This document shows, one piece after another, positions 3,944 to 22,374 of a stretch of 64,000 nucleotides of DNA. The stretch lies in NCBI RefSeq assembly GCF_021568705.1, contig NZ_JAKGTH010000011.1:248001-312000 (forward strand). Reading direction: 5' to 3'. The DNA comes from Gillisia lutea (GTDB lineage Bacteria; Bacteroidota; Bacteroidia; Flavobacteriales; Flavobacteriaceae). Under the pieces are notes generated by a model that saw only the letters and a program-made list of their open reading frames with translations, had not been told where the DNA came from and did no database searches. The position numbers were made by a program, and so were the translations under genes. Position 1 is the stretch's first letter; each line of letters begins with the position of its first letter.

Positions 3944-4366
3944 TTAATTAAGTTGTTTTAGTAGGGGAGTGCTGTACCGAATAATTCTAAATTTTAATTC
4001 TTCAAATTTCTCGGAGTCTTCTATCATCCAATTTGACAATTTTTTATGCCAACTCCTGTAAAAGGTATCACAACCTATGTCTTCACATTCCATCATTCCA
4101 CTTAGGTCATTTTTATGATGGCGAACCGCTAAAGTGAGATCTATCTTATCGGTATGAAGCTCTTCAAGCTTACTTTGAAACATTTGTAGTTTTTCGAACA
4201 TATTTGGAATATCCTGTTCAAAAATATTAGCACTTAATAAGTTCTTGTAAAATAGAAGTTCTTCCAAACTGGCCTGCAATACTTCATCCCAAAGAAGAAC
4301 ATCTTTTTGAAGATCTTCAATGCTTTGCTCATTGTAAGATTTGTTAAGAAGTTTAGAATCTGACAT
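3944..4366 (-). CDS. Small helical protein, member of an island paralog trio
   Basis: No known family is recognised. The 140 residues are almost entirely predicted alpha-helix, with no signal peptide or membrane segment. It is a paralog of the proteins at 6079-6477 and, more distantly, 5590-6039. The shared core runs LQKDVLLWDEVLQASLEELL, then a SANIFEQDIPNMFEKLQMFQSKLEEL stretch matching SSDIFEPSLPNLFEKLQLFLNKLES in the 6079 protein. It is the last gene of a likely five-gene operon read from the promoter at 6494-6542; the gap to the preceding gene is 98 bp, the largest in the operon, so a separate promoter is possible. A structural or adaptor role is only a guess. Confidence 0.75.
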   Translation of the reverse strand: MSDSKLLNKSYNEQSIEDLQKDVLLWDEVLQASLEELLFYKNLLSANIFEQDIPNMFEKLQMFQSKLEELHTDKIDLTLAVRHHKNDLSGMMECEDIGCDTFYRSWHKKLSNWMIEDSEKFEELKFRIIRYSTPLLKQLN

Positions 4367-4464
4367 GGCAATTAATTGTTTAATTATACATCAGTTTGCT
4401 TGAAGAATTGACTATGTTTAAGATACTATTTTTTCAGTCAATTTCATAAAATACGCGGTGGAAA

Positions 4465-5088
4465 TTAAGGTATAAGATCTTCTTTTTTTAATTGAGAAAG
4501 CAAAAGTTTTACATAGCTATGTACGGTGCTCTGTAAATTTTTAGGGTTGTGTAAATTAATGGCACCTCTCCATACTAATTCCCCGTTCCCTTTAGTAGTA
4601 AGATGATACAGGCCGGTTTCGGTATGAAATACCTTGTATGACTGTTCACTGTTATCACCATAAAAGATATCCTGGTTACTCAAATAGTCATCTTTGAAAC
4701 TATGAAATTCCCTGTTAAAATTTTTATAGGCATGTTTCGCCGTAATCCTGTTTTCTACGCGATTGATCTTACTTATAAGTACCGCATCATAGTTATTTTC
4801 CTTGAGTATAAGTTTTAGTTGTTCCAGTTCCCATTCCGATTTCTGATAAATGGTAAATAGCGGATCGAAGAACTCATAACTTTGCACGGCCATTATATTC
4901 TTTTTCTTAAATGCCTGCTGTAATTTATCTTCAAAAGATTTTCTGGCTTCATGATTGGAGGTAATACCAATTACAAGTATTTTTTTTAACTCGGGTGTTT
5001 CATTTAGTGTGGGTTTATAAGAATCTATCATGCGAGAGGAACTACATCCTGCAGCGATGAATAAAACTAGGAGCAATGCATATTTCAT
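4465..5088 (-). CDS. Putative lipoprotein
   Basis: The N-terminus MKYALLLVLFIAAGC is a lipoprotein signal with the lipidated Cys at residue 15. The mature part has an opening beta-alpha unit (LKKILVIGITSNHEARKSFEDKLQQAFKKKNI), then a segment with NYDAVLISKINRVENRI, and ends in a helical VHSYVKLLLSQLKKEDLIP. This resembles the overall plan of periplasmic or outer-membrane lipoproteins of the DUF4136/LpoB-like fold, but I cannot name a family. Its start overlaps the stop of the flavodoxin-like gene by 4 bp, so the two are translated together. It probably sits in the inner leaflet of the outer membrane. Confidence 0.75.
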   Translation of the reverse strand: MKYALLLVLFIAAGCSSSRMIDSYKPTLNETPELKKILVIGITSNHEARKSFEDKLQQAFKKKNIMAVQSYEFFDPLFTIYQKSEWELEQLKLILKENNYDAVLISKINRVENRITAKHAYKNFNREFHSFKDDYLSNQDIFYGDNSEQSYKVFHTETGLYHLTTKGNGELVWRGAINLHNPKNLQSTVHSYVKLLLSQLKKEDLIP

Positions 5089-5588
5089 TTGGTTCTATTT
5101 AAAATCTTATCAACCCTTAAAATGATCTCTTCTGTATATTCAGGTATCTTTTCTTTAATGGATTCTCCGGAAATTGCGTCTATTCCTTCAACATCGGGAT
5201 CGCCAGAAGTTGATAACACTACTAATTTGTCTTGTTTTCCTTTAGATTCTTTCAAAAATTCCATAACATTTTTAGAGGGAGTCCAGTATTGCCAGGAATT
5301 TAAAATAACTACTGCATCCCATTTTTCCAGATTAACAGAAAACAAACTATACACATCGATCACCTTTATATAAATATCCTCATCTTTATAATGGTCTACC
5401 ACGCCATTTACCACAGCCGTTTTTAGCTCACTGCCTTGTGTAGCAATAAGAAGTTTAGTTTCCAGTTTCGGGCTATTAACATAATAAGGAACACTTTGCG
5501 TCTTGGTATGGGAAAAATAATACCACACAACAACACCCAGTACCCCTAAAATTATAATGATCAGTATTTTATTTAAGTGCTTTAGCAT
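5085..5588 (-). CDS. Membrane-anchored flavodoxin-like protein
   Basis: One membrane segment (about residues 8-26, IIIILGVLGVVVWYYF) is followed by a soluble domain that reads like a flavodoxin fold: a first strand LLIATQGSELKTAVVNGVV, a middle strand KWDAVVILNSWQYW, and KLVVLSTSGDPDVEGIDAISG. Similar domains bind FMN or only keep the fold; the phosphate-binding loop (ATQGSELK) is not a classical TxTGxT, so cofactor binding is uncertain. The charge pattern suggests that the domain faces the periplasm. The gene lies one base after the preceding helical protein and overlaps the lipoprotein gene by 4 bp. A redox or envelope role in the stress response is inference. Confidence 0.7.
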   Translation of the reverse strand: MLKHLNKILIIIILGVLGVVVWYYFSHTKTQSVPYYVNSPKLETKLLIATQGSELKTAVVNGVVDHYKDEDIYIKVIDVYSLFSVNLEKWDAVVILNSWQYWTPSKNVMEFLKESKGKQDKLVVLSTSGDPDVEGIDAISGESIKEKIPEYTEEIILRVDKILNRTK

Positions 5589-5589
5589 A

Positions 5590-6039
5590 CTATTTTAATA
5601 ACCTTTTTTGTTTTAAATGTTTAAGTGCCTGGGATACCGTGGCAAAGATCTCTTTCTTCATTTTATTATAAACTTCGGTGAAACTATTTACTTCCTGTAG
5701 TAAGTTACGATGTTCTTCCTTATAAGCCCTCTCCTTTGCCGGTTCATCTTTTAAATCTACCAGCACTTCAATACCATTTTTATGGTTCTGAACATCCTTT
5801 AAAAGCGTGTCTACTTTCTTTTCTGAAGTGGTAAGCTGGTCGATGAGTACTTTAACCTGTGGGAATAAATTAGATTCTATAATTGGAAGTGTATATTCTT
5901 TCAGCATGTCTTTAAAAAAAAGATGCTCATCCTTAATGAATTTCATTTCTGAGATCCATTGATTGGTGGTGTGGTCCATTTCATCTGCACTTTTCCATTC
6001 CACATAACGAAATTTACTGGTGTTCTTTTTCATGATCAA
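5590..6039 (-). CDS. Small helical protein, divergent member of the paralog trio
   Basis: 149 residues, rich in Lys and Glu, predicted to be helical throughout and to form a coiled-coil bundle. No known domain. It shares with its two neighbours the pattern of an opening TxxWxxEMxFxxDEHLFFKDML helix, then a P-containing turn (TLPIIESNLFPQVKVLIDQL), and a third helix with a VQNHKNG stretch that matches AVRHHKNDL in the protein at 3944-4366. It is the second gene of the operon led by the gene at 6079-6477. The start is probably the second Met (MKKNTSKF) or the first; both fit. Function unknown. Confidence 0.72.
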   Translation of the reverse strand: MIMKKNTSKFRYVEWKSADEMDHTTNQWISEMKFIKDEHLFFKDMLKEYTLPIIESNLFPQVKVLIDQLTTSEKKVDTLLKDVQNHKNGIEVLVDLKDEPAKERAYKEEHRNLLQEVNSFTEVYNKMKKEIFATVSQALKHLKQKRLLK

Positions 6040-6078
6040 AGTTTTAATATAATTGATACTTATTTTGAATAGCCTGTT

Positions 6079-6477
6079 TTAAGATTTCTTGAGAAGATCT
6101 ATGGTACTGTTATAAATGTCTATTTTAAAATCGGAGAACCTTTCCACAAAATACCGCTGCTGTTTTCTAAGTTTAATATGATGTGCCCTATAAAGGGAGA
6201 TAGAATCTTTATTATTAAACTGGGCAAGTTCTTCTATTGCCACATCTAGTTTTTCTTTTGAATTTCTGAAACTCTCCAGCTTATTAAGAAAGAGCTGTAA
6301 TTTTTCGAATAGATTGGGAAGGCTTGGCTCAAAGATATCTGATGACAAGAAACTTTCAAGAAAGTCTATTTCTTCTGTGGCCAAATGGAGTTCACTTTTC
6401 CATTTAGCTACATCATTTAAATATTTAGTACTTACACCATTATTGGAGGAAGTGCTGTTTGAAGCTGAAGTTCCCAT
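6079..6477 (-). CDS. Small helical protein, first gene of the paralog operon
   Basis: 132 residues, no signal peptide. A Ser/Thr/Asn-rich N-terminus of about 17 residues is followed by helices. The region from YLNDVAKWKSELHLATEEI to PNLFEKLQLFLNKLESF is clearly related to the protein at 3944-4366 and marks an ancient duplication. It is the first gene after an FNR-like promoter whose predicted transcript starts 17 bp ahead of the ATG. The family is not recognised; four-helix-bundle scaffold or metal/cofactor-free regulator are open possibilities. Confidence 0.78.
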   Translation of the reverse strand: MGTSASNSTSSNNGVSTKYLNDVAKWKSELHLATEEIDFLESFLSSDIFEPSLPNLFEKLQLFLNKLESFRNSKEKLDVAIEELAQFNNKDSISLYRAHHIKLRKQQRYFVERFSDFKIDIYNSTIDLLKKS

Positions 6478-6493: not shown

Positions 6494-6542
6494 TTTTTCT
6501 AAATTAAAGATTCGATACAGCAATTAAAATGACAATTATCAG
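6494..6542 (-). promoter_or_regulatory. FNR-like class II promoter for the helical-trio operon
   Basis: Read on the minus strand: inverted repeat CTGATAATTGTCAT (6542-6529), then 22 bp, then core TAATTTAG (6506-6499). The repeat centre is 29.5 bp from the first core base, as in the eight other sites of the island. Predicted transcription start near 6494, 17 bp ahead of the ATG at 6477. Confidence 0.82.
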
Positions 6543-6569: not shown

Positions 6570-7943
6570 TTAGAACTTCAGGTTAACAACCTCATTAAGA
6601 TGTGGGAGATAAACGGGCCAATTGTAGGTATCCTTTATTTTTACTCGAAGCGTATCCCTTGCCATTTCTTCTCCATGTATTAAAAATATCTTTTGAGGTG
6701 TATTTTGTATGTTGCTTAACCAGGAAAGCAGTTCCTGCTGATCGGCATGTGCCGATAAACTTTCTATCTGGCGAACTATAGCTTTTACCTTATAATATTT
6801 CCCGGCAATTTTAATTTCATGCTGGCCTTCCTGCAGCTGCCTTCCTCTAGTACCCTCTGCCTGGTAACCCACCAGAAGTACGGTATTTTCAGGTTCTTCT
6901 AATGCGTAGCGTAAATAGGTTAACACTCTACCGCCAGTTACCATCCCACTTCCTGCAATCACAACTTTTGGGCGGGGATCATCTATAGTGTTCCAGGTGT
7001 CTCTATAGGAGGTAATTATGTTGAAATGATGTTTCATGGCTTTGTATTCGGAAAGACTTAGTTTGTGCCAGGAGCTGAAGGCCTCAAATACTTCAAGCAC
7101 CTCGTTTCCCATAGGGCTATCTACAAAAATTGGAATATTGGGTATCAGGTTTTTCTTATAAAGTTGCCACAGTTTATACATCAAGGTTTGAAGCCTTTCT
7201 ACGGCAAAACTTGGGATTATTAAATTTCCCCTTTTTTGAATAGTATTCTTAATAGCATCAATTAAAATATTATCGGCATCATCTTCAGCATGTAACTTAT
7301 TACCATACGTACTTTCCATAAAAATAAAATCGGCGCTTTCAGGTTTTTTAGGGGCTTCCAGTAAAGCATCGTTTTTCCTGCCTATATCTCCAGAGAAAAC
7401 AAACCGCTTTCCGAAGATATCCAGTTCAATAAAGGTAGAACCTATTATATGGCCATTCATTATAAACCTATATCGAATGTCTTTAGTAGCGGTATACCAG
7501 GTGTCTATTTCAGCAGATTCGAAATAACCTATAGTTCTTTTAGCATCTTCAACATTGTAAATTGGCAATGCCGGATCATGAATAGTATAACCTTCTTCAT
7601 TTGCATTTTCGGCATACTCTTCCTGGATCTTGGCACTATCCATTATAATTATTGTAGCAATTGCCAGGGTAGGAGCGGTAGCACGAACCGGGTTGTTATA
7701 ACCTTGAAGAACGAGTTTTGGCAGGTAGGCGGTATGGTCTAAATGCCCATGAGTGAGAAGTACCAGATCAATATTTTCTGGTGGAAAAGGAAAAGGTTCC
7801 CAGTTTAACTTGCGCAACTTTTTAAGTCCCTGAAACATCCCACAATCTATAAGGATGTTATAGTTGGGGGTTTCAATCAGAAATTTTGAACCTGTAACGG
7901 TTCCTGCAGCTCCTAAAAAATGTATTTTAACAGTTGTACTCAT
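6570..7943 (-). CDS. Beta-CASP metallo-beta-lactamase ribonuclease-like protein
   Basis: A metal-dependent RNase of the CPSF-73/beta-CASP group (COG1236 type), expected to cut RNA in the cytosol. Motif 1 (FLGAAGTVTGSKFLI) is at the start. The zinc motif HGHLDH is at residues 65-70, motif 3 at NGHIIGST, and motif 4 at FSGDIGRKN. The beta-CASP part shows PSFAVERLQTLMY, VDSPMGNEV and AGSGMVTGGRVL, then LSAHADQQELLSWL and FLIHGE at the C-terminus. All metal ligands appear present. 457 residues is normal. It follows the ATP-cone/nuclease gene by one base, so the two are almost surely co-translated, and the operon begins with a universal stress gene. RNA turnover during stress is the likely role. 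Confidence 0.88.
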   Translation of the reverse strand: MSTTVKIHFLGAAGTVTGSKFLIETPNYNILIDCGMFQGLKKLRKLNWEPFPFPPENIDLVLLTHGHLDHTAYLPKLVLQGYNNPVRATAPTLAIATIIIMDSAKIQEEYAENANEEGYTIHDPALPIYNVEDAKRTIGYFESAEIDTWYTATKDIRYRFIMNGHIIGSTFIELDIFGKRFVFSGDIGRKNDALLEAPKKPESADFIFMESTYGNKLHAEDDADNILIDAIKNTIQKRGNLIIPSFAVERLQTLMYKLWQLYKKNLIPNIPIFVDSPMGNEVLEVFEAFSSWHKLSLSEYKAMKHHFNIITSYRDTWNTIDDPRPKVVIAGSGMVTGGRVLTYLRYALEEPENTVLLVGYQAEGTRGRQLQEGQHEIKIAGKYYKVKAIVRQIESLSAHADQQELLSWLSNIQNTPQKIFLIHGEEMARDTLRVKIKDTYNWPVYLPHLNEVVNLKF

Positions 7944-7944
7944 T

Positions 7945-8784
7945 TTAATGATGTGATCCTATGCAAAGCATATTCATTTCCTTTAAAATTTTCTCTTTCC
8001 TTACTGCAGAAACCCCAAGGTGGTCCAGATAAAAATTATCGTTTATAAGTTCCTTGCATAGAACTACATCCCTGCTTAATAAAAACTGTTTTTCTCTATT
8101 AGTAAGAAGGGTTGAAACCGTTATTGGGTAAAGACCTGCAGTATCGATACGTTGTTTTAAACTATTGTTTGCCGGGTAATCCCAACTTAATAAGTATAGG
8201 TTTACGCATTTTCCATAGGCAATAGCATCTGCCGTAAACCTTGTGTTAGTAACCACCCATCCTTTTTTAAATTGAATTTTGGTCTGATTGAAATTTGCAA
8301 TATCCTTAAAGCGTGCATCTATATACAGAGGTATCTTTACATCGCAATTCCTACCTTGTTCGCCATGAAATTTACATTCTACTAGAAATTGTTCAGTATC
8401 TTTTAATACTACTACATCTACTTCATGTTTAACACATTTCCCTTGAAGAATCTTTCCTACTTTAGTATGATATCCACTATATTTTAGCAAGGCTGCTATA
8501 AACCGTTCAAAAGGAAATCCGGTAGGGCCTAATTCGTAAATGGCTTTTTTCAATTTGTATTTCGATGCTACCAAACCGTGCTTTTTCTTTAAAAGATTAA
8601 AAGCACGGTTATAGATTTGTTTTGTGGAGATACCTTCATATAGTTCATCTCCCAGAATTTGAATGATCTCCTGTATTACCGCTTCATTAGCTCCCGCTCT
8701 TCTTAAGGAAGAAGCTACCTTATCCATAGAGAAAAGTACCTTTTCCCCGGAAGCTTTTATTATATGTAAATTCTTGAATTGCAT
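7945..8784 (-). CDS. ATP-cone domain fused to an Mrr-like restriction endonuclease domain
   Basis: Residues 1 to about 90 form an ATP-cone (IIKASGEKVLFSMDKVASSLRRAG, then ISTKQIYNRAFNLLKKKHG), the nucleotide-sensing module best known from ribonucleotide reductases and NrdR. Residues ~95-230 resemble the PD-(D/E)xK nuclease fold of Mrr: FERFIAALLKYSGY, then HEVDVVVLKDTEQFLVECKFH, where the Asp of HEVD and the Glu and Lys of ECK are the catalytic triad. The tail has a short Cys-containing helix. There is no modification enzyme nearby, so a classical restriction role is unlikely. It lies between a universal stress gene (44 bp upstream) and the beta-CASP nuclease (1 bp downstream). A nuclease controlled by ATP or dATP level is the inference. 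Confidence 0.85.
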   Translation of the reverse strand: MQFKNLHIIKASGEKVLFSMDKVASSLRRAGANEAVIQEIIQILGDELYEGISTKQIYNRAFNLLKKKHGLVASKYKLKKAIYELGPTGFPFERFIAALLKYSGYHTKVGKILQGKCVKHEVDVVVLKDTEQFLVECKFHGEQGRNCDVKIPLYIDARFKDIANFNQTKIQFKKGWVVTNTRFTADAIAYGKCVNLYLLSWDYPANNSLKQRIDTAGLYPITVSTLLTNREKQFLLSRDVVLCKELINDNFYLDHLGVSAVRKEKILKEMNMLCIGSHH

Positions 8785-8828
8785 AAAAGCTTGGTTAAAA
8801 GGGTTAATAAGGAATAACTTAAACCAAT

Positions 8829-9686
8829 TTACGCTTTAATACTGTGCATTACCAGTATTGGAACCTGAGGCTTGTAGCCTATCTCTTCAATAAGAGATTT
8901 CGCAAAAATACTTGCAAAGAATCCGTGCTTTTTGTGAATGATGCCCAGTAAATTACTACCTCTACTTTCAATAAATGAATGAATTCCTGCCGCAACCTTG
9001 ATATTTGTAAGTGTGTGAAAGGTATGAACTACATTACTTAAATAATCTTCCAGCACCTCTTTATTACTTTCTTGTTCAGGAGTGAGTTTATCGCTTTGCT
9101 GTATATAGAGCACACGTATCGCTGCTCCGTAATGTTTAGCAAGCTCAATAAGTGGTGCAAGTTCATTATGCCTATAGTAAGTCTTGAAATTAGTGGCAAA
9201 CACGATCTCTTTTTTTGTTTCCTCTAAAAAAACAGCTTCTTCGGGCACCACTATAACAGGACATTGCTTAACCTTTTCCATCACGTTAACAGCATTACTA
9301 CCGTACAAGATGTTTACAGGGTTAGTTTCCCCTTTTGTACCCATAATTATCAAATCGATATCTTTTTCTTTTACCGTTTGTTTTACCGCTTCCAGAACCG
9401 GGCTATAGGTAGAGATCATTTCAAATTTATGATGGGGGTTATCAGACCTGAAGGCAATACCGTCAATCAGTTTTTCTAATCCCATTTCAGAATATTCTTT
9501 AGCCTTTTCGTATGCCGGTTCCCCCGGTTGAGGGACAATAAGTGTATCTGTTGTAAAGTGATAAAGCTGGAATGCATTTAATAAGTAAAACGTACAGGTT
9601 TCGTTCTTGTATAAGTTCAATGCATAGGTCAGTGCGTTCCAAGCATTCTTGGAGAAGTCGGTAGGTATTAGTATCTTCTTTTTCAT
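8829..9686 (-). CDS. Universal stress protein, tandem Usp domains
   Basis: Two Usp domains in 285 residues. The first (1 to ~150) starts KKILIPTDFSKNAWNALTYAL and carries the ATP-binding pattern GTKGET...GSNAV. The second (~155-285) starts EIVFATNFKTYYRHNELAPLI but lacks the G-x2-G-x9-G-S motif, so only the first domain is expected to bind ATP. Its second domain ends in the HKKHGFFASIFAKSL...PQVPILVM pattern shared with the other island Usps. It heads an operon with the ATP-cone nuclease and beta-CASP nuclease, and has an FNR-like promoter just upstream. It is a paralog of the three genes that follow on the same strand, and of the one at 18825. Confidence 0.93.
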   Translation of the reverse strand: MKKKILIPTDFSKNAWNALTYALNLYKNETCTFYLLNAFQLYHFTTDTLIVPQPGEPAYEKAKEYSEMGLEKLIDGIAFRSDNPHHKFEMISTYSPVLEAVKQTVKEKDIDLIIMGTKGETNPVNILYGSNAVNVMEKVKQCPVIVVPEEAVFLEETKKEIVFATNFKTYYRHNELAPLIELAKHYGAAIRVLYIQQSDKLTPEQESNKEVLEDYLSNVVHTFHTLTNIKVAAGIHSFIESRGSNLLGIIHKKHGFFASIFAKSLIEEIGYKPQVPILVMHSIKA

Positions 9687-9701: not shown

Positions 9702-9750
9702 CAGGGTAAAATTAATTTCTTTACCAAGCTGAAAATATGACGACCGTCAT
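9702..9750 (-). promoter_or_regulatory. FNR-like class II promoter for usp/ATP-cone nuclease/beta-CASP operon
   Basis: Minus strand: inverted repeat ATGACGGTCGTCAT (9750-9737), 22 bp, core TAATTTTA (9714-9707). Predicted start near 9702, 16 bp before the ATG. This repeat is one of the most symmetric of the set. It falls in a 97-bp gap inside a run of same-strand usp genes and so splits them into two operons. Confidence 0.84.
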
Positions 9751-9783: not shown

Positions 9784-10611
9784 TTAGGAAAGTGGTAAGA
9801 TAAGCACCGGAACTTCCGAATAAATTCCAAGATTTTCCTGTAATGGTTTGTTAAGCATTTTTTCTAAGACCGAATGTTTTTTGTTTACAAAGGCAATAAG
9901 ATCACTTTCCCTACTGGCAGTAAAACAATAGATACCTAAAGCTACATCGGGAATCTTAAGGGAGTGAAAGGAATGAGGGATAAAAGCTAATAAATTGGCT
10001 ATTTGGTGTTTATTCTTTTTATGCTCGATACTTAGTGATAAAGATTTATCTATATGTATTATCCGTACGGGAGCATTATATTTTAAACTAAGGTTTATAA
10101 GAAATTCGAAGTTCTTTTTGGTATGTGCACTGTTATAATCGTTAGCCAGTACAATTTCCTTAATCCCGGTAAAAGCTATGTCAGAGGGAACTATAAGTAT
10201 GGGCGCATGCTGGACTGTATCTACAATCTTTAGTGCATTACTTCCATAAAGCACCTCTTTAGCTCCTGTCGTCCCTTTTGCGCCAATAATAATAGTTTCA
10301 ATCTCATTTCCCTGCAACTGTAATTGTAGTGCTTCTAGCAAAGTATTTTCATTAGAGACAGGAATAAAACGATGGCCGGGAAAGGCATAGCTGGAAGTTA
10401 TAACTTCAATTAGTTTTTCCAGGTCATGTTCAGATTTGAGTTTTAGCTTAGTGGGGTCATTAAAATTTTTATCTACGCTAAATCTTGATATCTGTGTGTA
10501 AGCGTTTAACACTATAAATCTACAGTCTTCTTTTTTATACAAATTAACAGCGTACAGGAGCGCATTCCATGCATTTTGCGAAAAGTCTGTAGGCAGTAGT
10601 ACGGTTTTCAT
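9784..10611 (-). CDS. Universal stress protein, tandem Usp domains
   Basis: 275 residues with two Usp domains. The N-terminus KTVLLPTDFSQNAWNALLYAVNLY is nearly the same as in the neighbours. The first domain has the nucleotide motif GAKGTTGAKEVLYGSNAL. The second domain (from about IKEIVLANDYNSAHT) lacks it but keeps the FVNKKHSVLEKMLNKPL...VPVLILP ending. Third gene of an operon of three usp genes (10 bp behind the gene at 10622). Usp proteins of this kind are cytosolic and help cells survive starvation or low oxygen; the exact client is unknown. Confidence 0.92.
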   Translation of the reverse strand: MKTVLLPTDFSQNAWNALLYAVNLYKKEDCRFIVLNAYTQISRFSVDKNFNDPTKLKLKSEHDLEKLIEVITSSYAFPGHRFIPVSNENTLLEALQLQLQGNEIETIIIGAKGTTGAKEVLYGSNALKIVDTVQHAPILIVPSDIAFTGIKEIVLANDYNSAHTKKNFEFLINLSLKYNAPVRIIHIDKSLSLSIEHKKNKHQIANLLAFIPHSFHSLKIPDVALGIYCFTASRESDLIAFVNKKHSVLEKMLNKPLQENLGIYSEVPVLILPLS

Positions 10612-10621
10612 TACAACTGGA

Positions 10622-11464: not shown

Positions 11465-11488
11465 GGCCAGATAATTTTAATTGTTATT

Positions 11489-14367: not shown

Positions 14368-14378
14368 AAAATCATGTT

Positions 14379-14642
14379 ATGAAATATGCTTTATGTCAAA
14401 GTTGCGGAATGCCTTTAGTAGATGCTATTAAGGGTACGAATAGGGATAAGTCAACCAATAACGAATACTGCATGCATTGCTTTCAAAATGGTGAATTTAC
14501 CGATCATCATTTAACCATGCATAAGCTGGAAGTGAAAATACTGGAAATGGCTGAGGTACATAATGATCTCACTCTCGAGGAAGCACGCCAGGTAATTAAA
14601 ATCTTACCTACCTTAAAACGTTGGCAAATGAGTAATTTATAA
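14379..14642 (+). CDS. Small zinc-ribbon protein
   Basis: 87 residues. Two CxxC knuckles are visible: CQSCGMPL at residues 6-13 and CMHCFQNG at about 32-39, separated by ~22 residues; this fits the putative zinc-ribbon family whose members carry the CxxCGMPL motif. A helical C-terminal part follows (LEVKILEMAEVHNDLTLEEARQVIKILPTLKRW). The function of the family is unknown; protein or nucleic-acid binding is plausible. It lies between the TerB-like gene and the P-type ATPase in one transcription unit. Confidence 0.82.
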   Translation: MKYALCQSCGMPLVDAIKGTNRDKSTNNEYCMHCFQNGEFTDHHLTMHKLEVKILEMAEVHNDLTLEEARQVIKILPTLKRWQMSNL

Positions 14643-14717
14643 CCTGAGTAAAATAACTATGCGAAGCCTTCCTATTTATTTTCTTAACCTTAGTTCTTTA
14701 TACTTATACTGAAAAGT

Positions 14718-17222
14718 ATGAAGGAAAATCCATTCGCTTTTACAGGTCTTACAGATGATGAGGTACTTGCAGCTCGTCGAAAATATGGTACAAACAGCCG
14801 GGATACAACTGAAAACTATTTTTTTTGGCATATGTTAAAGGAAATAGTACAGGAACCTATGTTTCTTCTACTACTTGCTACCTCCCTCATTTATTTTTTC
14901 TTGAATGAAACTTCTGAAGGTTTCTTTCTTCTGGGAGCGATTGTAATTATTTCTACTATTTCGGTTCTTCAAACAGCCAGGAGTAATAAAGCTTTGAAAT
15001 CTTTAAAAGAATATACTCAAAAGCTCACTAGCGTTATAAGAAATAATACTACTGTAAAAATTAAATCGGAAGAAATAGTAATAGGAGATATCGTAGTTTC
15101 TGAAGAAGGAGAGTTAATAACAGCCGATGGCGTTATATTACAGCTTAATGATTTTTCAGTAAATGAAGCTATTTTAACCGGTGAAGCTTTTAGTGTTGCA
15201 AAAGAAATAGAAAACCCGACGAATAATAAGGTCTATCAAGGTTCTGCTGTAGTATCCGGCCAATGTGTATACAGGGTTACGCATATAGGAAATTTTACTA
15301 AACTCGGAAAAATAGATACCTCGCTTAGCAATTTAAAAAATCAGAAATCACCTCTTCAAATCCAAATCACATCATTTGTTAAGAAAATGGCAATTCTTGG
15401 CTTTGCTATTTTCCTGCTTATTTGGGGATTAAGTTTTTACAACTCGCAGAACTTAATGGGGAGTCTTTTAAAAGGTCTAACAATTGCTATGTCAGTCTTA
15501 CCAGAAGAGATTCCTGTGGCATTTACAACTTTTATGGCTTTGGGTGCCTACAGGTTAATGAAACTGGGCATTGTGGTTAAGCAAATGGGAACCGTAGAAA
15601 CTCTGGGCGCTGCCACCGCTTTATGTACCGATAAGACCGGAACCATCACTCAGAATAAAATGGAATTGCACAAGATATATTCTTACAAGAAAAAAAGTAT
15701 TACCACCCAAGATAACTGGAATACAGAAGATCTCTTCGAAATTATAAGCTTTGCAATGTGGGCCAGTGAAATTGTTCCCTTTAATCCCATGGAAATAGCA
15801 TTGCATGAGGTATATCAAAAACTTATTATTAAAGATGAACGCCCTGCATACCAGATGATTCATGAATATCCGTTGGGGGGACACCCTCCTATGATGACGC
15901 ATATCTTTAAAAACAAGGAAGGGGATAGGGTTATTGCTGTGAAAGGTGCTCCGGAAGGGATAGTTAAACATTCCAAAATTAGCGATTTAGAAAAGCAGGA
16001 GATACTGGACAAAGTTGATAAACTGGCCTCTGAAGGTTTAAGAGTATTGGCAGTTGGAAAGGTAGATTGGTTAAAAGATGAATTTCCAGCACACCAGCAA
16101 GAATTTGAATTTGAGTTTCTTGGATTGCTTGGTTTTTATGATCCTCCAAAAGATAATATAGTACATACGTTAAAGCAGTTATATGAGGCGGGTATTGATA
16201 TTAAGATGATTACTGGGGATAATACCTTAACAGCGGTATCAATTGCTAATCAGATAGAGTTTAAAAATAATACTCCCCCGGTGACTGGCAGAGAATTAAT
16301 GGAGTTAGATGAACAACATTTTGATGAACGTGTTTTGAATGGCTCCATTTTCACAAGGGTGTTTCCTGAGGTAAAGGTTAAGATCGTAAATAGTTTGAAA
16401 AAGCAACATCAAATTGTAGGAATGACCGGAGATGGTGTGAACGATGCACCGGCACTCAAAGCAGCACATATTGGAATAGCTATGGGCTTACGAGGTTCTG
16501 ATATCGCTAAAGAGGCATCTTCTTTAATTCTTACCGATGACGATTTTGGAAAAATGGTAGATGCGATTGCCATGGGGCGCAAAATATATCTGAATTTAAA
16601 AAAAGCCATTCAGTATATTATCTCTATTCATATTCCTATAATTCTTACTGTAGCAGTTCCCTTAATTTTAGGCTGGGTATATCCGGTAATTTTTACACCC
16701 GTTCATGTTATTTTTTTAGAGCTAATTATGGGGCCAACCTGTTCTATAATATACGAGAACGAACCGCTTGAAAAATACAGTATGCAGCGGGCGCCAAGAG
16801 CTATGGGAGAAACGTTTTTGAGATGGAAGGAACTCTCAATAAGCATTTTTCAAGGCCTTGCAATTACCTTAGGATGTTTATTTATATATCAGTTTACCGT
16901 AACTAAGGGGTATACGGAAGAAGGGACCAGAACGCTGGTGTTTAGCACTCTTATTTTTTCAAATGTTCTATTAACCTTAGTAAACAGATCATTTTACTTA
17001 TCAATTATAAGCACCTTTAAATATAAAAATCCCTGGATATGGGGAATAATAGGCATTAGTGTATTATTATTAATATTAATGATTTATGAACCTCATTTCT
17101 CAAAATTCTTTAAGCTTGAAAAAGTAAGTGGCTTTGAACTAATCTTCGCTTTTTGTATTGCATTTATAAGTGTGACCTGGTTTGAAGTTTATAAATGGTT
17201 ATTGAGAAACAAGAGGGCTTGA
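14718..17222 (+). CDS. PII-like cation-transporting P-type ATPase
   Basis: 834 residues, an inner-membrane ion pump. Visible landmarks are the N-terminal cation-ATPase domain (FTGLTDDEVLAARRKYG), the actuator loop LTGEAF near residue 154, the M4 motif PEEIP near 262, the phosphorylation site CTDKTGTITQNK (Asp near 304), the nucleotide-binding KGAPEG, and the hinge TGDGVNDAP near 570. The overall plan is that of calcium pumps. M6, where calcium pumps have N-x-x-T-D, reads FLELIMGPTCSIIYENEP instead, so the transported ion is uncertain. It is the last gene of the TerB/zinc-ribbon operon. A PII-type ATPase next to Usp genes is also found in dormancy regulons elsewhere. Confidence 0.92.
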   Translation: MKENPFAFTGLTDDEVLAARRKYGTNSRDTTENYFFWHMLKEIVQEPMFLLLLATSLIYFFLNETSEGFFLLGAIVIISTISVLQTARSNKALKSLKEYTQKLTSVIRNNTTVKIKSEEIVIGDIVVSEEGELITADGVILQLNDFSVNEAILTGEAFSVAKEIENPTNNKVYQGSAVVSGQCVYRVTHIGNFTKLGKIDTSLSNLKNQKSPLQIQITSFVKKMAILGFAIFLLIWGLSFYNSQNLMGSLLKGLTIAMSVLPEEIPVAFTTFMALGAYRLMKLGIVVKQMGTVETLGAATALCTDKTGTITQNKMELHKIYSYKKKSITTQDNWNTEDLFEIISFAMWASEIVPFNPMEIALHEVYQKLIIKDERPAYQMIHEYPLGGHPPMMTHIFKNKEGDRVIAVKGAPEGIVKHSKISDLEKQEILDKVDKLASEGLRVLAVGKVDWLKDEFPAHQQEFEFEFLGLLGFYDPPKDNIVHTLKQLYEAGIDIKMITGDNTLTAVSIANQIEFKNNTPPVTGRELMELDEQHFDERVLNGSIFTRVFPEVKVKIVNSLKKQHQIVGMTGDGVNDAPALKAAHIGIAMGLRGSDIAKEASSLILTDDDFGKMVDAIAMGRKIYLNLKKAIQYIISIHIPIILTVAVPLILGWVYPVIFTPVHVIFLELIMGPTCSIIYENEPLEKYSMQRAPRAMGETFLRWKELSISIFQGLAITLGCLFIYQFTVTKGYTEEGTRTLVFSTLIFSNVLLTLVNRSFYLSIISTFKYKNPWIWGIIGISVLLLILMIYEPHFSKFFKLEKVSGFELIFAFCIAFISVTWFEVYKWLLRNKRA

Positions 17223-17232: not shown

Positions 17233-17259
17233 GGGTATGATAAATATCATTTCATACCC
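17233..17259 (+). terminator. Hairpin after the P-type ATPase gene, overlapping an FNR-like site
   Basis: Arms GGGTATGA (17233-17240) and TCATACCC (17252-17259), 11-nt loop. No clear T run follows, so termination is uncertain. The regulator site at 17237-17250 lies inside it. Confidence 0.45.
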
Positions 17260-17312: not shown

Positions 17313-17525
17313 ATGACTAGTATAGCAAATATCCTTACCCAAATTACGGAGCTAACTACCGATTTGGAAACAAACTATCCAGAGATATATAAATTCTTGG
17401 AGGAAGAACCCATTACCATTCCTGCCTTTGAGCATCCATACCTGAATAAAAAATTACTGAAGGATTATCTGGAGAGTTTAAAGGAGCTTATAATACATCA
17501 TAAGCAAACACACCAAATTCAGTAA
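17313..17525 (+). CDS. Small conserved-looking protein of unknown function
   Basis: 70 residues, acidic N-terminal half, predicted helical: ILTQITELTTDLETNYPEIYKFLEEEP, then IPAFEHPYLNKKLLKDYLESLKELI. No membrane segment or signal. It is judged real because it sits between a well-placed promoter and the LOG gene (11 bp downstream) and its codon use is like that of its neighbours. Function unknown. Confidence 0.68.
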   Translation: MTSIANILTQITELTTDLETNYPEIYKFLEEEPITIPAFEHPYLNKKLLKDYLESLKELIIHHKQTHQIQ

Positions 17526-17536
17526 TTTCTCAAGTC

Positions 17537-18292
17537 TTGAAAGGAAATAAAAATAGTAAAAAGCTTCCCGTTCTGTCAGAAGAATATAGTTTTTTCTCTG
17601 GTCCATGTGGGAGATTAAAAGAATTTTTATTTATTATAAAAGTAGGATGGAATTTTATCAAGGCATTTAGAAAGATGCATTTTTTAGGGCCATGTGTTAC
17701 TGTATTTGGATCTGCAAGATTTAAGGAAACCAGCATCCATTACCAACATGCTGAAAAAATAGGAGCAGCGCTTGCCAAACTCGGTTTTACGGTAATGACC
17801 GGTGGCGGACCGGGAATTATGGAAGCAGCTAATAAAGGGGCTTATGAGGCCGGGGGATATTCAGTGGGCTGTAATATTGTTTTACCGTTCGAACAACGTC
17901 CTAATCCTTATCTGCACAAATGGATCAATATTCCTTACTTCTTTATTCGAAAAGTGTTGTTGGTAAAGTATTCCTATGCTTTCATAGTCTTACCCGGTGG
18001 CTTCGGGACACTGGACGAACTTTTTGAATCCCTGGTACTTATTCAAACCAAGATCATTGAAAAGTTTCCTGTAATTTTATTCGGAAAAGAATATCATAAA
18101 GAATTGTTGGAGTATATCGAGTTAATGAAAGCTGGAAAGACCATTCATGAATCAGACCTTGAAAATCTTTTAGTCACCGATTCGGTGGAGGAAATGAGCA
18201 CCTATTTAGAAAAATTTTCTATAGAAAAATTCGGATTGATAACTAAAAGGGCTCGAGAAAAATGGTGGTTGGGCGAACGAAAAACCTCTTAG
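17537..18292 (+). CDS. LOG-family nucleoside 5'-monophosphate phosphoribohydrolase-like protein
   Basis: Family TIGR00730/LOG, whose members split base from ribose 5-phosphate in cytokinin nucleotides or AMP. The motifs are GGGPGIMEAANKGAYEAGG near residues 92-110 and PGGFGTLDELFE near 154-165, both complete. 251 residues from a TTG start at 17537; the N-terminal ~50 residues (LPVLSEEYSFFSGPCGRLKEF) look coding, so the TTG start is preferred over the internal ATG at RKMHFLG. It shares the island promoter at 17237, which suggests a role in nucleotide recycling under stress rather than hormone synthesis. Its stop overlaps the convergent gene by 4 bp. Confidence 0.88.
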   Translation: MKGNKNSKKLPVLSEEYSFFSGPCGRLKEFLFIIKVGWNFIKAFRKMHFLGPCVTVFGSARFKETSIHYQHAEKIGAALAKLGFTVMTGGGPGIMEAANKGAYEAGGYSVGCNIVLPFEQRPNPYLHKWINIPYFFIRKVLLVKYSYAFIVLPGGFGTLDELFESLVLIQTKIIEKFPVILFGKEYHKELLEYIELMKAGKTIHESDLENLLVTDSVEEMSTYLEKFSIEKFGLITKRAREKWWLGERKTS

Positions 18293-18795
18293 AACTGCTG
18301 GGGGTTAAACCCTAATTTTCTTTTAATGATTGGGACTTCCCATTTAATAATTTCCTTTAAGAATTCGTCTATCATCTCGACCACTAATTTTTCGGTAATT
18401 GAATGTGGAGGGTAGGTACCAAGATCTACTACGTCGTCTTCCTCATGAGCAAGATTCTCTACAAACGGAAATATTACAAATACATTAATATCTCCGTTAT
18501 GCATTTGTGTAAAAATAAGGGATCCTCCTTGTATAAATTGATAGGTAGGTATTTGATTGGTCTTTTCAATTAAGTCTGGTGGGAATGTATCGAAGGTAAT
18601 ATTAACAGCTTCGTTAATATGTACCCATTTCAGTTCCTGCACACGCCAGCCAATTTTATAACTTTCTTCGGCATCTTTTAATACTTTAAGAATGAGTGGT
18701 TTCTTTTCTAAATTCCAAAGAATTCTCTTTTCAATTACTATTTGTATTGAAGCCTTGTACTCATTGATTCTTTCTTCTAAATATTCAATTTTCAT
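18289..18795 (-). CDS. Hypothetical cytosolic protein of the stress island
   Basis: 168 residues, no signal or membrane segment, no family recognised. It opens with a helical, charged part (KIEYLEERINEYKASIQIVIEK), then a mixed alpha/beta part with WVHINEAVNITFDTFPPDLIEK, a beta hairpin GGSLIFTQMHNGDINVFVIFPF, and a helical end VVEMIDEFLKEIIKWE. It follows the universal stress gene at 18825 by 29 bp and is probably co-transcribed with it. The 4-bp overlap of its end with the LOG gene on the other strand is unusual and rules out a terminator between them. Confidence 0.75.
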   Translation of the reverse strand: MKIEYLEERINEYKASIQIVIEKRILWNLEKKPLILKVLKDAEESYKIGWRVQELKWVHINEAVNITFDTFPPDLIEKTNQIPTYQFIQGGSLIFTQMHNGDINVFVIFPFVENLAHEEDDVVDLGTYPPHSITEKLVVEMIDEFLKEIIKWEVPIIKRKLGFNPQQF

Positions 18796-18824
18796 AGCTT
18801 CTAATATTGAAAAGGATCATAAGG

Positions 18825-19667
18825 TTAATAACAGGTTTCTTTGAAACTCAATAAAGGAGTTTTAATATTGGCATACATGCGTTTTACGAAATCCCGATGT
18901 AATAGTCCGGTTAAATTATTCTTTCTCTTACGATTGTACATAACCAGCATTTCCGGTTGGTATTCATTTATAAAAGTTACTAGTGACTCGAATACTGTAT
19001 TAGAATAGATAAGTTTTGACTGGATTTTATTACCGGGAATCTTTTCTTCTAATACTTCCTGGAACTTCTCTAATTTTTGTTTGGTAGCAGCCTCGTCTTC
19101 TGTAGAGATATGTACCAGAAGAATTGATATATCCATAGGTGCAAGAATCTTGGTTAATTCAAGAATATTGCAAGCATCTTTCTTTTCAAAATCGGTAGTA
19201 TAAAGTATTTTTTGTATCCCACTGAACTCGAAGTCGGCAGGAACCGTAAGTACAGGGAACGGAGAGAGGTCCAACATTTCGGTGGTGTTATTACCAAGAA
19301 GAAGCTCTTTTAAATTTCCGGCACCTCTGGCTCCCATAATTAGCATATGGATATTCATATCTCTAATAAATTTCATAATTGCACTGGGAACATTGGTGCC
19401 TTTACGCACTGCTGCCGTTATTTGTAATTCGTCAAAATCTTTTTTTAGATGTAGACTGCAAAAATTTTTAAGTCGCTTGTTTTCATTTATTATTACCTCT
19501 TTCACATCCAGCTTTAAATTAGATGCGGTTTCATTTTTATGATTATGAATGTGAAGCACAATAAGATCGTAGCCCAAGATCTTACTAACCTTATAAGCAT
19601 ACTTTAGTGCTGCTATGGAATTCTCTGAATAATCTGTGGTATGAACTATCTTTTTCATAATTCTCAA
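18825..19667 (-). CDS. Universal stress protein, tandem Usp domains (divergent paralog)
   Basis: 280 residues, two Usp domains. The first opens KKIVHTTDYSENSIAALKYAYKVS and has GARGAGNLKELLLGNNTT, where Asn replaces the usual Ser/Thr after the last Gly. The second starts ILYTTDFEKKDACNILELTKIL and ends MYNRKRKNNLTGLLHRDF...IKTPLLSF, a weaker match to the ending shared by the other four. It is thus the most distant of the five Usps. The alternative start is the Met at the third residue position of the frame (MKKIVH). First gene of a two-gene unit with its own FNR-like promoter. Confidence 0.92.
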   Translation of the reverse strand: MRIMKKIVHTTDYSENSIAALKYAYKVSKILGYDLIVLHIHNHKNETASNLKLDVKEVIINENKRLKNFCSLHLKKDFDELQITAAVRKGTNVPSAIMKFIRDMNIHMLIMGARGAGNLKELLLGNNTTEMLDLSPFPVLTVPADFEFSGIQKILYTTDFEKKDACNILELTKILAPMDISILLVHISTEDEAATKQKLEKFQEVLEEKIPGNKIQSKLIYSNTVFESLVTFINEYQPEMLVMYNRKRKNNLTGLLHRDFVKRMYANIKTPLLSFKETCY

Positions 19668-19680: not shown

Positions 19681-19729
19681 CTTCTTAAAAGTACCACCAC
19701 ATAGGCGGAGAAAGAATGATATTCATCAT
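19681..19729 (-). promoter_or_regulatory. FNR-like class II promoter for the usp/hypothetical pair
   Basis: Minus strand: inverted repeat ATGATGAATATCAT (19729-19716), 22 bp, core TACTTTTA (19693-19686). Predicted start near 19681, 14 bp ahead of the ATG. Confidence 0.83.
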
Positions 19730-19788: not shown

Positions 19789-20751
19789 TTATTGTCGTTC
19801 CAGTTTTCTAAAGTAACCTCTGAATAAAAAATTATGTTTTAAGGCTTCCATATTCTCGTTGAACTTTATACTTGATTCGTCAATATTCCTAACGGTGTTA
19901 TTTAAATGATTAGAGAAGGAGGTATCGTTTAAAATGAGATTTAGAGTGCCATCACTGGTGTTTAGCGAATTAGAAAATTGAGTGATATTAGCAGAGATAT
20001 CTTTTATCTCTGTAGCCGACTGATCTAAGCTTTCAATGATATTGGTTATTTTTCTAGCCGATAAAGAATCATTCAGCAATACATTTACGGCACTTTCTTT
20101 ATAGTTTAAAGAGGAAACAATTTCGTTTAATTTATTAATGGTCGACAGGGCATTTCTACTCATAACCTGAAGATTAGAAATGCTTTGTTTTATATCTCCT
20201 GCCATGGTTTCGTCTTTTAACAGCGCGCCTAACGTACCTTCCCCATTGTTTAAGGAGTTGGTTATTTTAAGCAGATCGGCCGTTAATAAAGCAGCGTTCT
20301 CGTTGGTAGTATTTAGTGTGGTAAGCATATCTGCTGTGGCGATCTTGCTTATAGAACGTAAAGTGTCACCTTCTTCTACGGTCGCAGAACCTCCGTTTTC
20401 CTCGGGAAGTATATTTAAGATCATACTTCCTACCAAACCATCGGTGTTTATAGTTACAAGAGAATTCTTTTTTATTAGTTGAACAGCTTTATTATCGATA
20501 ATCATGTCTACACAAATACTGGTATCGCTTACAATGGTTATTGCTTTTACCGTTCCTACATTTACACCGGAGTAGCGAACGTTATTTCCCAGCTGTAAGC
20601 CATTTACATTCTTAAACACCGAACTGATTTTTGTGGTGTTGCCAAATAAATTCTGTTTATTACCAATAAAGTAGATAGCCAGCACAAAAATAATGAGTCC
20701 AACAACTACGAATATTCCTAACCAAAGGTTGTTTGAAGATCTTTTTTTCAT
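19789..20751 (-). CDS. MlaD/MCE-domain periplasmic lipid-binding subunit
   Basis: The substrate-binding part of an Mla/MCE phospholipid or lipid ABC transporter. One N-terminal membrane segment (about residues 9-28, LWLGIFVVVGLIIFVLAIYF) is followed by a single MCE domain (about 37-120: SSVFKNVNGLQLGNNVRYSG, VNVGTVKAI, VGSMILNILPEE). The rest is a long helical tail with NNGEGTLGALLKDE and SDGTLNLILNDTSF repeats typical of flavobacterial MCE proteins. 320 residues. Third gene of the operon permease-ATPase-MCE, 8 bp behind the ATPase. Confidence 0.9.
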   Translation of the reverse strand: MKKRSSNNLWLGIFVVVGLIIFVLAIYFIGNKQNLFGNTTKISSVFKNVNGLQLGNNVRYSGVNVGTVKAITIVSDTSICVDMIIDNKAVQLIKKNSLVTINTDGLVGSMILNILPEENGGSATVEEGDTLRSISKIATADMLTTLNTTNENAALLTADLLKITNSLNNGEGTLGALLKDETMAGDIKQSISNLQVMSRNALSTINKLNEIVSSLNYKESAVNVLLNDSLSARKITNIIESLDQSATEIKDISANITQFSNSLNTSDGTLNLILNDTSFSNHLNNTVRNIDESSIKFNENMEALKHNFLFRGYFRKLERQ

Positions 20752-20759
20752 GGTCTATT

Positions 20760-21527
20760 TTATTTAAAGAATGCCTGCACTTTAGGATCCTTAGAACTGG
20801 ATAGTTCTTTAAAGGTGCCTTCAGCATAATTAATCCCGTTGAGCAGTAATATCATTCGGTTAGAGATTACCCTGGCACAATCTACATCGTGAGTAATTAT
20901 GAGAGATGAGGTTTTATATTTTTTCTGTATACTCATCATTAACAAGATTATTTCCTTTGCGGTAATTGGGTCTAAGCCGGTTGTAGGTTCATCGTACAAT
21001 ATTATTTTTGGTTTCAAGATTAGCGCTCGTGCCAGAGCAACCCTGCGTTGCATTCCTCCGGAAAGTTCGGCCGGCATAAGGTCAATGGCACTTGCGAGTC
21101 CTACACTTTCTAGTGCTTCCAAAACCAATTCATCTGTATTTTTAAGATCAACTTTATTGGTATGCCTACGCATAGGAAACTCAAGATTTTCTCTTACTGT
21201 CATTGAATCGTATAGGGCACTGCCCTGAAAAAGAAACCCTATCTCGGTTCGCAATTCATCCAGTTCTTGTTGTTTCAACTTCAAAATATCATTTCCTAAC
21301 ACCTCTATACTTCCGCTATCAGGTTCCATCAATCCTATAAGGCATTTTATCATAACCGATTTCCCTGAACCGGATTTGCCCATAAGTACAAGATTTTCTC
21401 CTTCCATCAATTTTAAATTGAAGCCATTCAGCACCTTGAGATTTCCAAAACTCTTATAAAGATCTTTTATCTCAATCACCGGTCTGGGATCGGGGTTTTG
21501 GCTAATATGTTCCTTTGTATTATTCAT
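20760..21527 (-). CDS. MlaF-like ABC transporter ATPase
   Basis: Cytosolic ATPase that drives the lipid transporter. Walker A MGKSGSGKSVMIK near residue 50, Q loop FLFQGSALYDSMTVRENLEFP, signature LSGGMQRRVALARAL near 155, Walker B IILYDEPTTGLDP and the switch His in ITHDVD. The SALYDSMTV Q-loop context is characteristic of the MlaF group. 255 residues. It starts 2 bp after the permease gene. Confidence 0.93.
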   Translation of the reverse strand: MNNTKEHISQNPDPRPVIEIKDLYKSFGNLKVLNGFNLKLMEGENLVLMGKSGSGKSVMIKCLIGLMEPDSGSIEVLGNDILKLKQQELDELRTEIGFLFQGSALYDSMTVRENLEFPMRRHTNKVDLKNTDELVLEALESVGLASAIDLMPAELSGGMQRRVALARALILKPKIILYDEPTTGLDPITAKEIILLMMSIQKKYKTSSLIITHDVDCARVISNRMILLLNGINYAEGTFKELSSSKDPKVQAFFK

Positions 21528-21529
21528 AA

Positions 21530-22309
21530 CTACTCGTAAAAAATGTCAGATATAAAAACAGCAATGAAATCAATAACAAATAAAAGCATAGAAGTATAAA
21601 CTACTGCAGCATTGGAAGCCTGCCCAACCCCGGCGGTACCTTTTTTACTATTATAACCTTTGTAGCAGCCTATTAGACCAATTGCAAAACCAAAAAAGAA
21701 TGTTTTTATAGTGGCGGGAACAATATCACTGAAATTAAGTGAGTCAAAAACCTGATTAAAATAAAGCTGAAATGAAACGCTTCCCTTTATATATTCTACA
21801 AGGGCTGAACCTAATAAAGCAATAAAATCACCAAATATTACCAATATGGGTAACATTAAAGTAGTGGCAAGTATTCGGGTAACCACTAAAAATTTAAAGG
21901 GATTGGTGCCGGAAACCTCCATGGCATCTATTTGTTCGGTCACTCGCATAGATCCTAGTTCAGCTCCAATTCCCGAACCTATACGGCCGGCACAAATAAG
22001 AGCTATAATTACGGGGCCAATTTCCCGCACTATAGATATACTTACCATAGAAGGCATCCATGCTGCGGCACCAAATTCCAGTAGGGTTGGTCTGGACTGC
22101 AGCGTGAATACCAGTCCTAAAATAAATCCCGTTACTCCCACAAGTAGTAGGGACCTGTTTCCCATATTATAACATTGCCTTAATAACTCTTTAAATTCAA
22201 ATGGGAGCGAAAAAACTTCTCTAAAAAACCTTCCGGCAAATTTGGTCACTTCTCCCACTTCTGTGAAAAAAGAAATCATGCCTTTAGTAAATCGAGATGA
22301 CTTTAGCAT
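21530..22309 (-). CDS. MlaE-like ABC transporter permease
   Basis: Inner-membrane permease of the MlaE/DUF140 family, 259 residues with about five membrane segments. The family core REIGPVIIALICAGRIGSG, then GAELGSMRVTEQIDAM, lies around residues 95-130; GCYKGYNSKKGTAGVG near 215-230 is the conserved C-terminal loop. First gene of the operon with the ATPase and MCE subunits. Its promoter carries the same FNR-like site as the stress genes, placing envelope lipid transport in the regulon. Confidence 0.92.
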   Translation of the reverse strand: MLKSSRFTKGMISFFTEVGEVTKFAGRFFREVFSLPFEFKELLRQCYNMGNRSLLLVGVTGFILGLVFTLQSRPTLLEFGAAAWMPSMVSISIVREIGPVIIALICAGRIGSGIGAELGSMRVTEQIDAMEVSGTNPFKFLVVTRILATTLMLPILVIFGDFIALLGSALVEYIKGSVSFQLYFNQVFDSLNFSDIVPATIKTFFFGFAIGLIGCYKGYNSKKGTAGVGQASNAAVVYTSMLLFVIDFIAVFISDIFYE

Positions 22310-22325
22310 ATAAACAGTTTAGTAA

Positions 22326-22374
22326 GTGACTAAAATTAATTTAGATGCAGACCTAAAAAAATGATGTACATCAG
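22326..22374 (-). promoter_or_regulatory. FNR-like class II promoter for the Mla-type operon
   Basis: Minus strand: inverted repeat CTGATGTACATCAT (22374-22361), 22 bp, core TAATTTTA (22338-22331). Predicted start near 22326, 17 bp ahead of the ATG. This is the last site of the island. Confidence 0.84.

Follow-up and report, generated by a model that had tools for sequence, protein, structure and literature searches.

Genes of the island and the nine palindromes ahead of them

The stretch of DNA analysed here, called the window below, comprises 64,000 nucleotides of the Gillisia lutea genome (contig C11:248001-312000; genome 3.18 Mb). Positions 3944-22374 hold an island of 23 genes in nine units, with five genes for universal stress proteins (USPs), together with nine palindromes that appear to be the operators of one activator of the CRP/FNR superfamily. 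The gene count, first given in a sequence-only reading of this DNA, holds, and comprises 22 open reading frames (ORFs) of at least 80 aa and one of 70 aa at 17313-17525.

Nine TGAY-N4-RTCA palindromes of the window stand in one register ahead of a TAnnTT core (Table 1). The same reading had placed nine repeats at these coordinates, each reading MTGAYNNNNRTCAT toward its gene, with exactly 22 bp between repeat and core and 29.5 bp from centre to core; positions and both distances are confirmed in 9/9 cases. It had also described the core as TAnnTTTR-like. Strict TAnnTTT is present in six of the nine but not at the operators starting at 6529, 13816 and 13894, whose cores are TAATTTAG, TAATTTAG and TACTTTGG, respectively. 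The pattern TGAYNNNNRTCA has 12 occurrences in the window, where 3.39 would be expected. The composite pattern TGAYNNNNRTCAT-N22-TANNTT was observed nine times against 0.02 expected, a number reached by none of 100 dinucleotide-preserving shuffles, which bears out the proposal that so many copies in one register exceed chance. The operator and its register are almost certainly real.

The other three palindromes of the window (32554, 33606 and 63343) are off register. One of them, TTGATAAACATCAA at 32554-32565, is an E. coli-like FNR palindrome two bases off register, with an M3 peptidase gene on one side and a CheB-CheR-PAS kinase gene on the other. The window gave no Rfam match at the gathering score and no tRNA.

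Table 1. Transcription units of the island and their predicted operators, in window coordinates
Feature	Coordinates	Strand	Description
Unit 1	3944..6477	-	five genes (6079, 5590, 5085, 4465, 3944)
Unit 2	6570..9686	-	universal stress protein; ATP-cone + Mrr_cat protein; metallo-beta-lactamase/beta-CASP/RMMBL RNase-like protein
Unit 3	9784..12367	-	three universal stress proteins
Unit 4	12552..13184	+	WG-repeat protein
Unit 5	13260..13742	-	Hsp20 small heat-shock protein
Unit 6	13963..17222	+	unknown 134-aa protein; zinc ribbon (PF12674); P-type cation ATPase
Unit 7	17313..18292	+	70-aa ORF (17313-17525), then LOG-type (Lysine_decarbox) protein (17537-18292)
Unit 8	18289..19667	-	universal stress protein (18825); unknown protein (18289)
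Unit 9	19789..22309	-	MlaE-MlaF-MlaD-like transporter genes
Operator CTGATAATTGTCAT	6529..6542	-	core TAATTTAG at 6506-6499; predicted start 6494
Operator ATGACGGTCGTCAT	9737..9750	-	core TAATTTTA; predicted start 9702
Operator CTGATATCTGTCAT	12414..12427	-	core TAATTTTA; predicted start 12379
Operator ATGATTGTAGTCAT	12483..12496	+	core TACCTTTC; predicted start 12531
Operator CTGACATTTATCAT	13816..13829	-	core TAATTTAG; predicted start 13781
Operator CTGATAAAAATCAT	13894..13907	+	core TACTTTGG; predicted start 13942
Operator ATGATAAATATCAT	17237..17250	+	core TAAATTTA; predicted start 17285
Operator ATGATGAATATCAT	19716..19729	-	core TACTTTTA; predicted start 19681
Operator CTGATGTACATCAT	22361..22374	-	core TAATTTTA; predicted start 22326

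Three genes of unit 1 (6079, 5590 and 3944) look like distant, divergent paralogues encoding helical bundles. The 5590 product has a weak DUF2935 match below the cut-off, and its predicted structure, the only one modelled for this unit, is a helical bundle for which a fold search found no match at E <= 0.001. The beta-CASP protein of unit 2 (6570-7943) scores 397 bits with the NCBIfam type VII CRISPR Cas14 MBL/CASP (metallo-beta-lactamase/CASP) model, far under its cut-off of 800.

Promoter position and flanking bases

In Flavobacterium psychrophilum, the sigma-A box TAnnTTTG spans positions -12 to -5 of mapped transcription starts (PMC9723704). Because the palindrome centre lies 29.5 bp from the core, this places the predicted operator centre at -41.5, the class II position.

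Flanking bases were counted for the 24 of 25 strict on-register sites of the genome that lie in fetched sequence. On the upstream side the flanking base is A in 15, C in 8, G in 1 and T in none, so that the outer T/A pair of the FNR operator TTGAT-N4-ATCAA is not found. The downstream flank is T in 23/24, and a T-rich tract continues at offsets 14-17, predicted to be positions -33 to -30. Bacteroidetes promoters possess a -33 element. Since the T-rich stretch coincides with the place expected for this element, the asymmetry is probably a feature of the promoter rather than of the operator. The flank asymmetry pointed out earlier (A or C upstream, T downstream) is real, but its T opens the T-rich tract.

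A genome-wide set of sites

When the gap between palindrome and TANNTTT was varied over 21 values in the whole genome, 49 matches were found against 25 for a reversed-pattern control (all gaps). The 22-bp gap accounts for 25 of the 49, and each other gap for at most four. The whole-genome scan for repeat, 22 bp and core, proposed earlier as a check, returned 31 sites with the looser core TANNTT, against none for the reversed control: nine in the island, 13 on contig C7 at 258-306 kb and nine elsewhere. The statement that no such unit lies outside the island is true inside the window only. A regulon confined to the island was rejected, with 22 of the 31 sites beyond it.

For the 30 sites in fetched sequence, 29 are outside ATG-initiated ORFs of at least 120 aa, compared with 18% of random positions. 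In 29/30, an ATG-initiated ORF of at least 60 aa begins between 3 nt upstream and 250 nt downstream of the predicted transcription start (random, 42%), mostly 15-41 nt downstream.

Two of the genes behind on-register sites were assigned with scores above model cut-offs. These are hemN (TIGR00538, 415.6 bits, cut-off 325), whose ORF begins 75 nt after the predicted start, and a fused cbb3 oxidase gene, ccoNO (NF011053, 1340.7 bits, cut-off 1080), which follows a 71-aa ORF (L051:13618-13833) that looks, by eye, like ccoS. In FNR and FixK regulons, both are hallmarks of the response to low oxygen. Further products encoded behind sites outside the island are USPs, a P-type ATPase, a dehydrogenase E1 component and a metallo-beta-lactamase-rhodanese protein whose gene precedes that of a peroxiredoxin.

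The C7 region at 258-306 kb (L043-L045) is a second stress cluster, with its 13 on-register sites and one pair of regulator and kinase genes of the kind described below. It also holds genes for USPs, PfkB, a short-chain dehydrogenase, a PEP-synthase-like protein and an AcrB-like pump.

Candidate regulators

A profile search of the genome found four HTH_Crp_2 and six cNMP_binding matches above cut-off. The search for a CRP/FNR-family gene suggested by the sequence-only reading thus yields six Crp-like proteins, though no proper FNR among them, and FNR proper was rejected as a candidate in this genome. Two of the six are paralogous response regulators with a receiver (REC) domain followed by cNMP_binding and HTH_Crp_2 (C7:259159-260217 and C6:174026-175069), hereafter REC-Crp. 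Each of their genes adjoins a gene for a PAS histidine kinase. The other four are P0005 (C7:610.8 kb), P0006 (C8:255 kb), P0007 and P0008. As judged by eye, P0005 and P0006 are devoid of the Glu of the FNR-like helix.

The phospho-acceptor D52 and K104, characteristic of response regulators, are invariant in 20/20 aligned REC-Crp sequences. The recognition-helix residues E318 and R322, as in helices of the FNR/FixK type, are equally invariant (20/20); we take their counterparts in E. coli FNR to be E209 and R213. The residue preceding the helix Arg is Ile or Ser in most sequences. The N-terminal cysteine motif of FNR is missing: none of the 20 has a cysteine within its first 20 residues, and no CxxC occurs near the start of the six Crp-like proteins of the genome; P0003 has one cysteine and P0001 three (51, 190 and 338). 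An AlphaFold model of REC-Crp (predicted local distance difference test score, pLDDT, 83; predicted template modelling score, pTM, 0.54) matches structures of the CRP family.

REC-Crp corresponds to neither FixJ nor FixK as these are defined. It shares the receiver with FixJ, but its output is cNMP_binding and HTH_Crp_2 instead of a LuxR-type helix-turn-helix (HTH), and the NCBIfam FixJ model matches far under cut-off and over the receiver only. Its FNR-like part lacks the cysteine motif, as in FixK, yet is fused to a receiver.

The C7 kinase contains the kinase core and passes no NCBIfam kinase model by a naming margin; several PAS domains occur in some of the kinases. The first PAS domain (PAS1) of the C7 kinase gave 18 PDB matches at E <= 0.01, mostly heme domains of FixL and DosP, and the proximal His column is aligned in the matches shown to these proteins. 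Of 22 neighbouring kinases read by eye, 21 have a His at the proximal position; in the exception, G033b, no such His was seen within the 260 residues read.

Neighbourhoods of homologues

The surroundings of REC-Crp genes were examined in 20 loci of relatives, 20 kb each, chosen by the authors and not at random (eight from the family of the window, 12 from others). On-register sites number 42, against 22 summed over 19 other registers, and at least one is present in 15/20 loci. Gene content is in part shared with the island: L116 and L117 carry USPs, the beta-CASP RNase and the ATP-cone/Mrr protein, and L121 the beta-CASP RNase, ATP-cone/Mrr and Hsp20. A ccoNO or hemN-like gene is found near the REC-Crp gene in several other loci.

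A contig scan with two receiver-domain peptides gave, among its best 80 loci, 11 that span nearly the whole query and 69 that cover little beyond the receiver. The eleven further loci carry 12 on-register sites against five over 19 registers. Those with sites include an Aquimarina sp. (L164: USPs, hemN-like, ccoNO) and a Flavobacteriaceae metagenome-assembled genome (L166: Mrr, beta-CASP RNase, USPs).

In the 12 loci outside the family of the window, all nine palindrome pairs less than 60 bp apart are spaced 22 bp (six) or 23 bp (three). Such close pairs occur in L128, L129, L130, L131, L132 and L133, and also in L135, L140 and L172, whereas no 22-23 bp pair was found in the eight own-family loci or in the stretches from this genome. 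Paired palindromes of this kind would sit at -41.5 and about -63.5.

Distribution across genomes of the class

A full-length REC-Crp, called at E <= 1e-55, is present in 75 of 158 genomes of the class, the discovery genome being inside the positive set. On-register sites average 8.04 per genome with REC-Crp and 3.52 without it, compared with off-register values per gap (control gaps 25-29) of 1.59 and 1.30. A cysteine-type FNR sharing the helix is present in the six relatives examined, of which G029, G068, G142 and G017 lack REC-Crp and G025 and G107 have it; C4, C7, C53 and C106 are invariant in the six.

Genomes were then grouped by both proteins, FNR-positive meaning E <= 1e-41, a cut chosen after the list had been seen, with cysteines inspected in six proteins only; 11 genomes of uncertain assignment (four with REC-Crp, seven without) were kept apart. 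Sites per genome on register, against off register per gap, are 11.43 and 1.95 where both proteins occur (30 genomes), 5.59 and 1.37 with REC-Crp only (41 genomes), and 4.92 and 1.50 with the FNR-like protein only (37 genomes). With neither (39 genomes) the values are 1.49 and 0.97, near background, in a grouping that depends on the matches listed and includes some genomes with unclassified weak matches (E 1e-24 to 1e-32). The motif excess tracks REC-Crp and, separately, the FNR-like protein. Genomes are not independent, for which pairing within families is a partial remedy: genomes with REC-Crp are higher in 14 of 18 families (Wilcoxon p = 0.0012; sign test p = 0.031).

Around the cysteine-FNR genes of relatives (L244-L249), TGAYNNNNRTCA lies within about 120 bp of the gene start in 5/6 loci, and no strict on-register core is directed toward the FNR gene. 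A P-type ATPase-like gene adjoins the FNR gene in 5/6. Our guess would be autoregulation of the cysteine FNR, possibly negative.

Proposed mechanism and alternatives

Our working explanation, which we consider likely as a whole, assigns the nine repeats to one CRP/FNR-superfamily activator as its class II operators, places them in a low-oxygen and stress regulon of about 31 promoters, and takes the activator to be one or both REC-Crp proteins under a FixL-like kinase. The earlier idea of a single activator of this superfamily at predicted class II promoters is retained; the island-only regulon and FNR proper as the regulator are not. When oxygen falls, the PAS kinase would phosphorylate the receiver, and the phosphorylated receiver would switch on the Crp-type DNA-binding part and so activate the operator genes. 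The cascade FixL to FixJ to FixK would thereby be shortened to a FixL-like kinase and a fused FixJ-FixK. The parts differ in strength: REC-Crp is very probably the operator binder, and sensing of oxygen through heme seems fairly probable.

A broader proposal, toward which we lean slightly, is that in a large part of the class (75/158 genomes hold the protein) the fused FixJ-FixK, under a FixL-like kinase, acts on the ATGAYNNNNRTCAT operator that in relatives is also read by the cysteine FNR. Heme-kinase and iron-sulfur sensors would be interchangeable or stacked, used alone or together.

Several points weigh against this explanation. The operators, their register, the genome distribution, the regulator architecture, the gene neighbourhoods and the co-occurrence are observed; DNA contact, phosphotransfer, heme, oxygen as signal and activation are inferred. 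A His at the PAS position is no proof of heme; the top PDB match of the C7 PAS1 is a kinase with an unstated ligand, and this kinase scores 108 bits with the NCBIfam rhizobial FixL model, whose cut-off is 850. As to autoregulation, no on-register site with up to three mismatches reads toward the kinase and regulator genes of this genome, and the sole on-register site at the C7 kinase gene, with one mismatch, points away from that gene. The signal in relatives is uneven, with 33 of the 42 sites in the eight own-family loci and none in 5/20 loci or in 6/11 of the further ones. Around the ATP-cone/Mrr gene, 30 loci yield five on-register sites (two from this genome) against six over 19 registers, and the operator before this gene is not kept beyond near relatives in these loci. 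Holders of the gene do have REC-Crp more often (22/30 vs 75/158 overall; Fisher p = 0.002). Finally, P0005-P0008 are alternative candidate binders, the helix of P0007 and P0008 being PESLSR, and C6:54619, which gave a weak HTH match, may be a further one.

Among the alternatives, the most serious, though unlikely, keeps the regulator but replaces oxygen as the signal, for example by NO, redox state or energy charge; the island would then be a general stress block. In its favour, USPs, Hsp20, MlaEFD and P-type ATPases are unspecific to oxygen, and several PAS domains occur in some kinases. The operator before ccoNO and hemN here, and the presence of these or similar genes near REC-Crp in several relatives, speak for oxygen; so does F. 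psychrophilum, in which cbb3 oxidase and heme synthesis are raised under oxygen limitation (PMC9723704).

It is improbable that the operators belong to one of P0005-P0008, with REC-Crp a passenger or minor partner. Beyond the existence of these proteins and the helix of two of them, the 83/158 genomes without REC-Crp keep an average motif excess (ratio 2.7). Much of that excess, however, follows the FNR-like protein, with the same helix in the six examined, and the ratio falls to 1.53 in genomes with neither. Moreover, on-register sites cluster around REC-Crp genes, and two of the four proteins are without the helix Glu.

Control of the island by a true oxygen-sensing [4Fe-4S] FNR would fit the operator core, the class II spacing and the hemN and ccoNO targets, and relatives do have a cysteine FNR near ATGAYNNNNRTCAT-like sites. 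It is nonetheless very improbable here, given the absence of CxxC near the start of the six Crp-like proteins and a single match to the cysteine FNR in this genome (E = 6e-30, place not listed) that falls within the range of REC-Crp matches. That the register arises by chance or from the composition of AT-rich intergenic DNA, core and flanks being AT-rich, can be dismissed in view of the window counts, the few matches at other gaps and the loss of most of the excess in genomes without both regulators.

Significance and comparison with known systems

Low-oxygen sensing in this bacterial group is little described in the open-licence literature searched, where the search results showed no account of oxygen genes in Bacteroidota being controlled by a response regulator of the Crp type. 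FixL-FixJ is predicted in a Chitinophaga genome note (PMC5646412), and another report, on genomes of Flavobacteriales and Saprospiraceae, predicts that their Crp/FNR homologues sense carbon (PMC8510549). If the explanation is true, the operator, promoter position, named regulator and regulon of about 31 promoters become testable predictions, the oxygen sensor has been swapped while the operator stayed, and several little-known genes (helical-bundle paralogues, ATP-cone/Mrr proteins, the beta-CASP RNase and MlaEFD) would come under low-oxygen control.

In mycobacteria, hypoxic induction of USPs and a small heat-shock protein is brought about by the heme kinases DosS/DosT and the response regulator DosR, whose output is of the LuxR type, where a Crp-type one is found here. 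The lxa locus of Burkholderia cenocepacia encodes six USPs, a heat-shock protein, a metallo-beta-lactamase protein, a phosphofructokinase and an acetoacetyl-CoA reductase (PMC6127331). The island, with USPs, Hsp20 and beta-CASP, and the C7 cluster, with PfkB and a short-chain dehydrogenase, resemble that set. The likeness is one of gene content; phylum, promoters and further genes differ.

Proteobacterial FNR and FnrN resemble the present system, as does the cysteine FNR of relatives, in the operator core, the helix Glu and Arg and the class II position predicted here. FNR targets include cbb3 and hemN-type genes, as behind the sites here. REC-Crp differs in having no N-terminal CxxC, a receiver domain replacing the iron-sulfur sensor.

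The closest parallel is the rhizobial cascade FixL-FixJ-FixK or hFixL-FxkR-FixK, in which a cysteine-less FNR-like activator controls ccoNO (fixNOQP)-type genes through a TGAT-N4-ATCA core (PMC7888657). Both systems combine a receiver, a cysteine-less FNR-like part and the same core with a PAS kinase that resembles heme sensors. The operator flank differs, being A/C...T here and TTGAT-N4-ATCAA in rhizobia. Receiver and FNR-like DNA-binding part form one protein here, without the LuxR-type output of FixJ, and because they are fused, no separate fixK promoter step would be needed.

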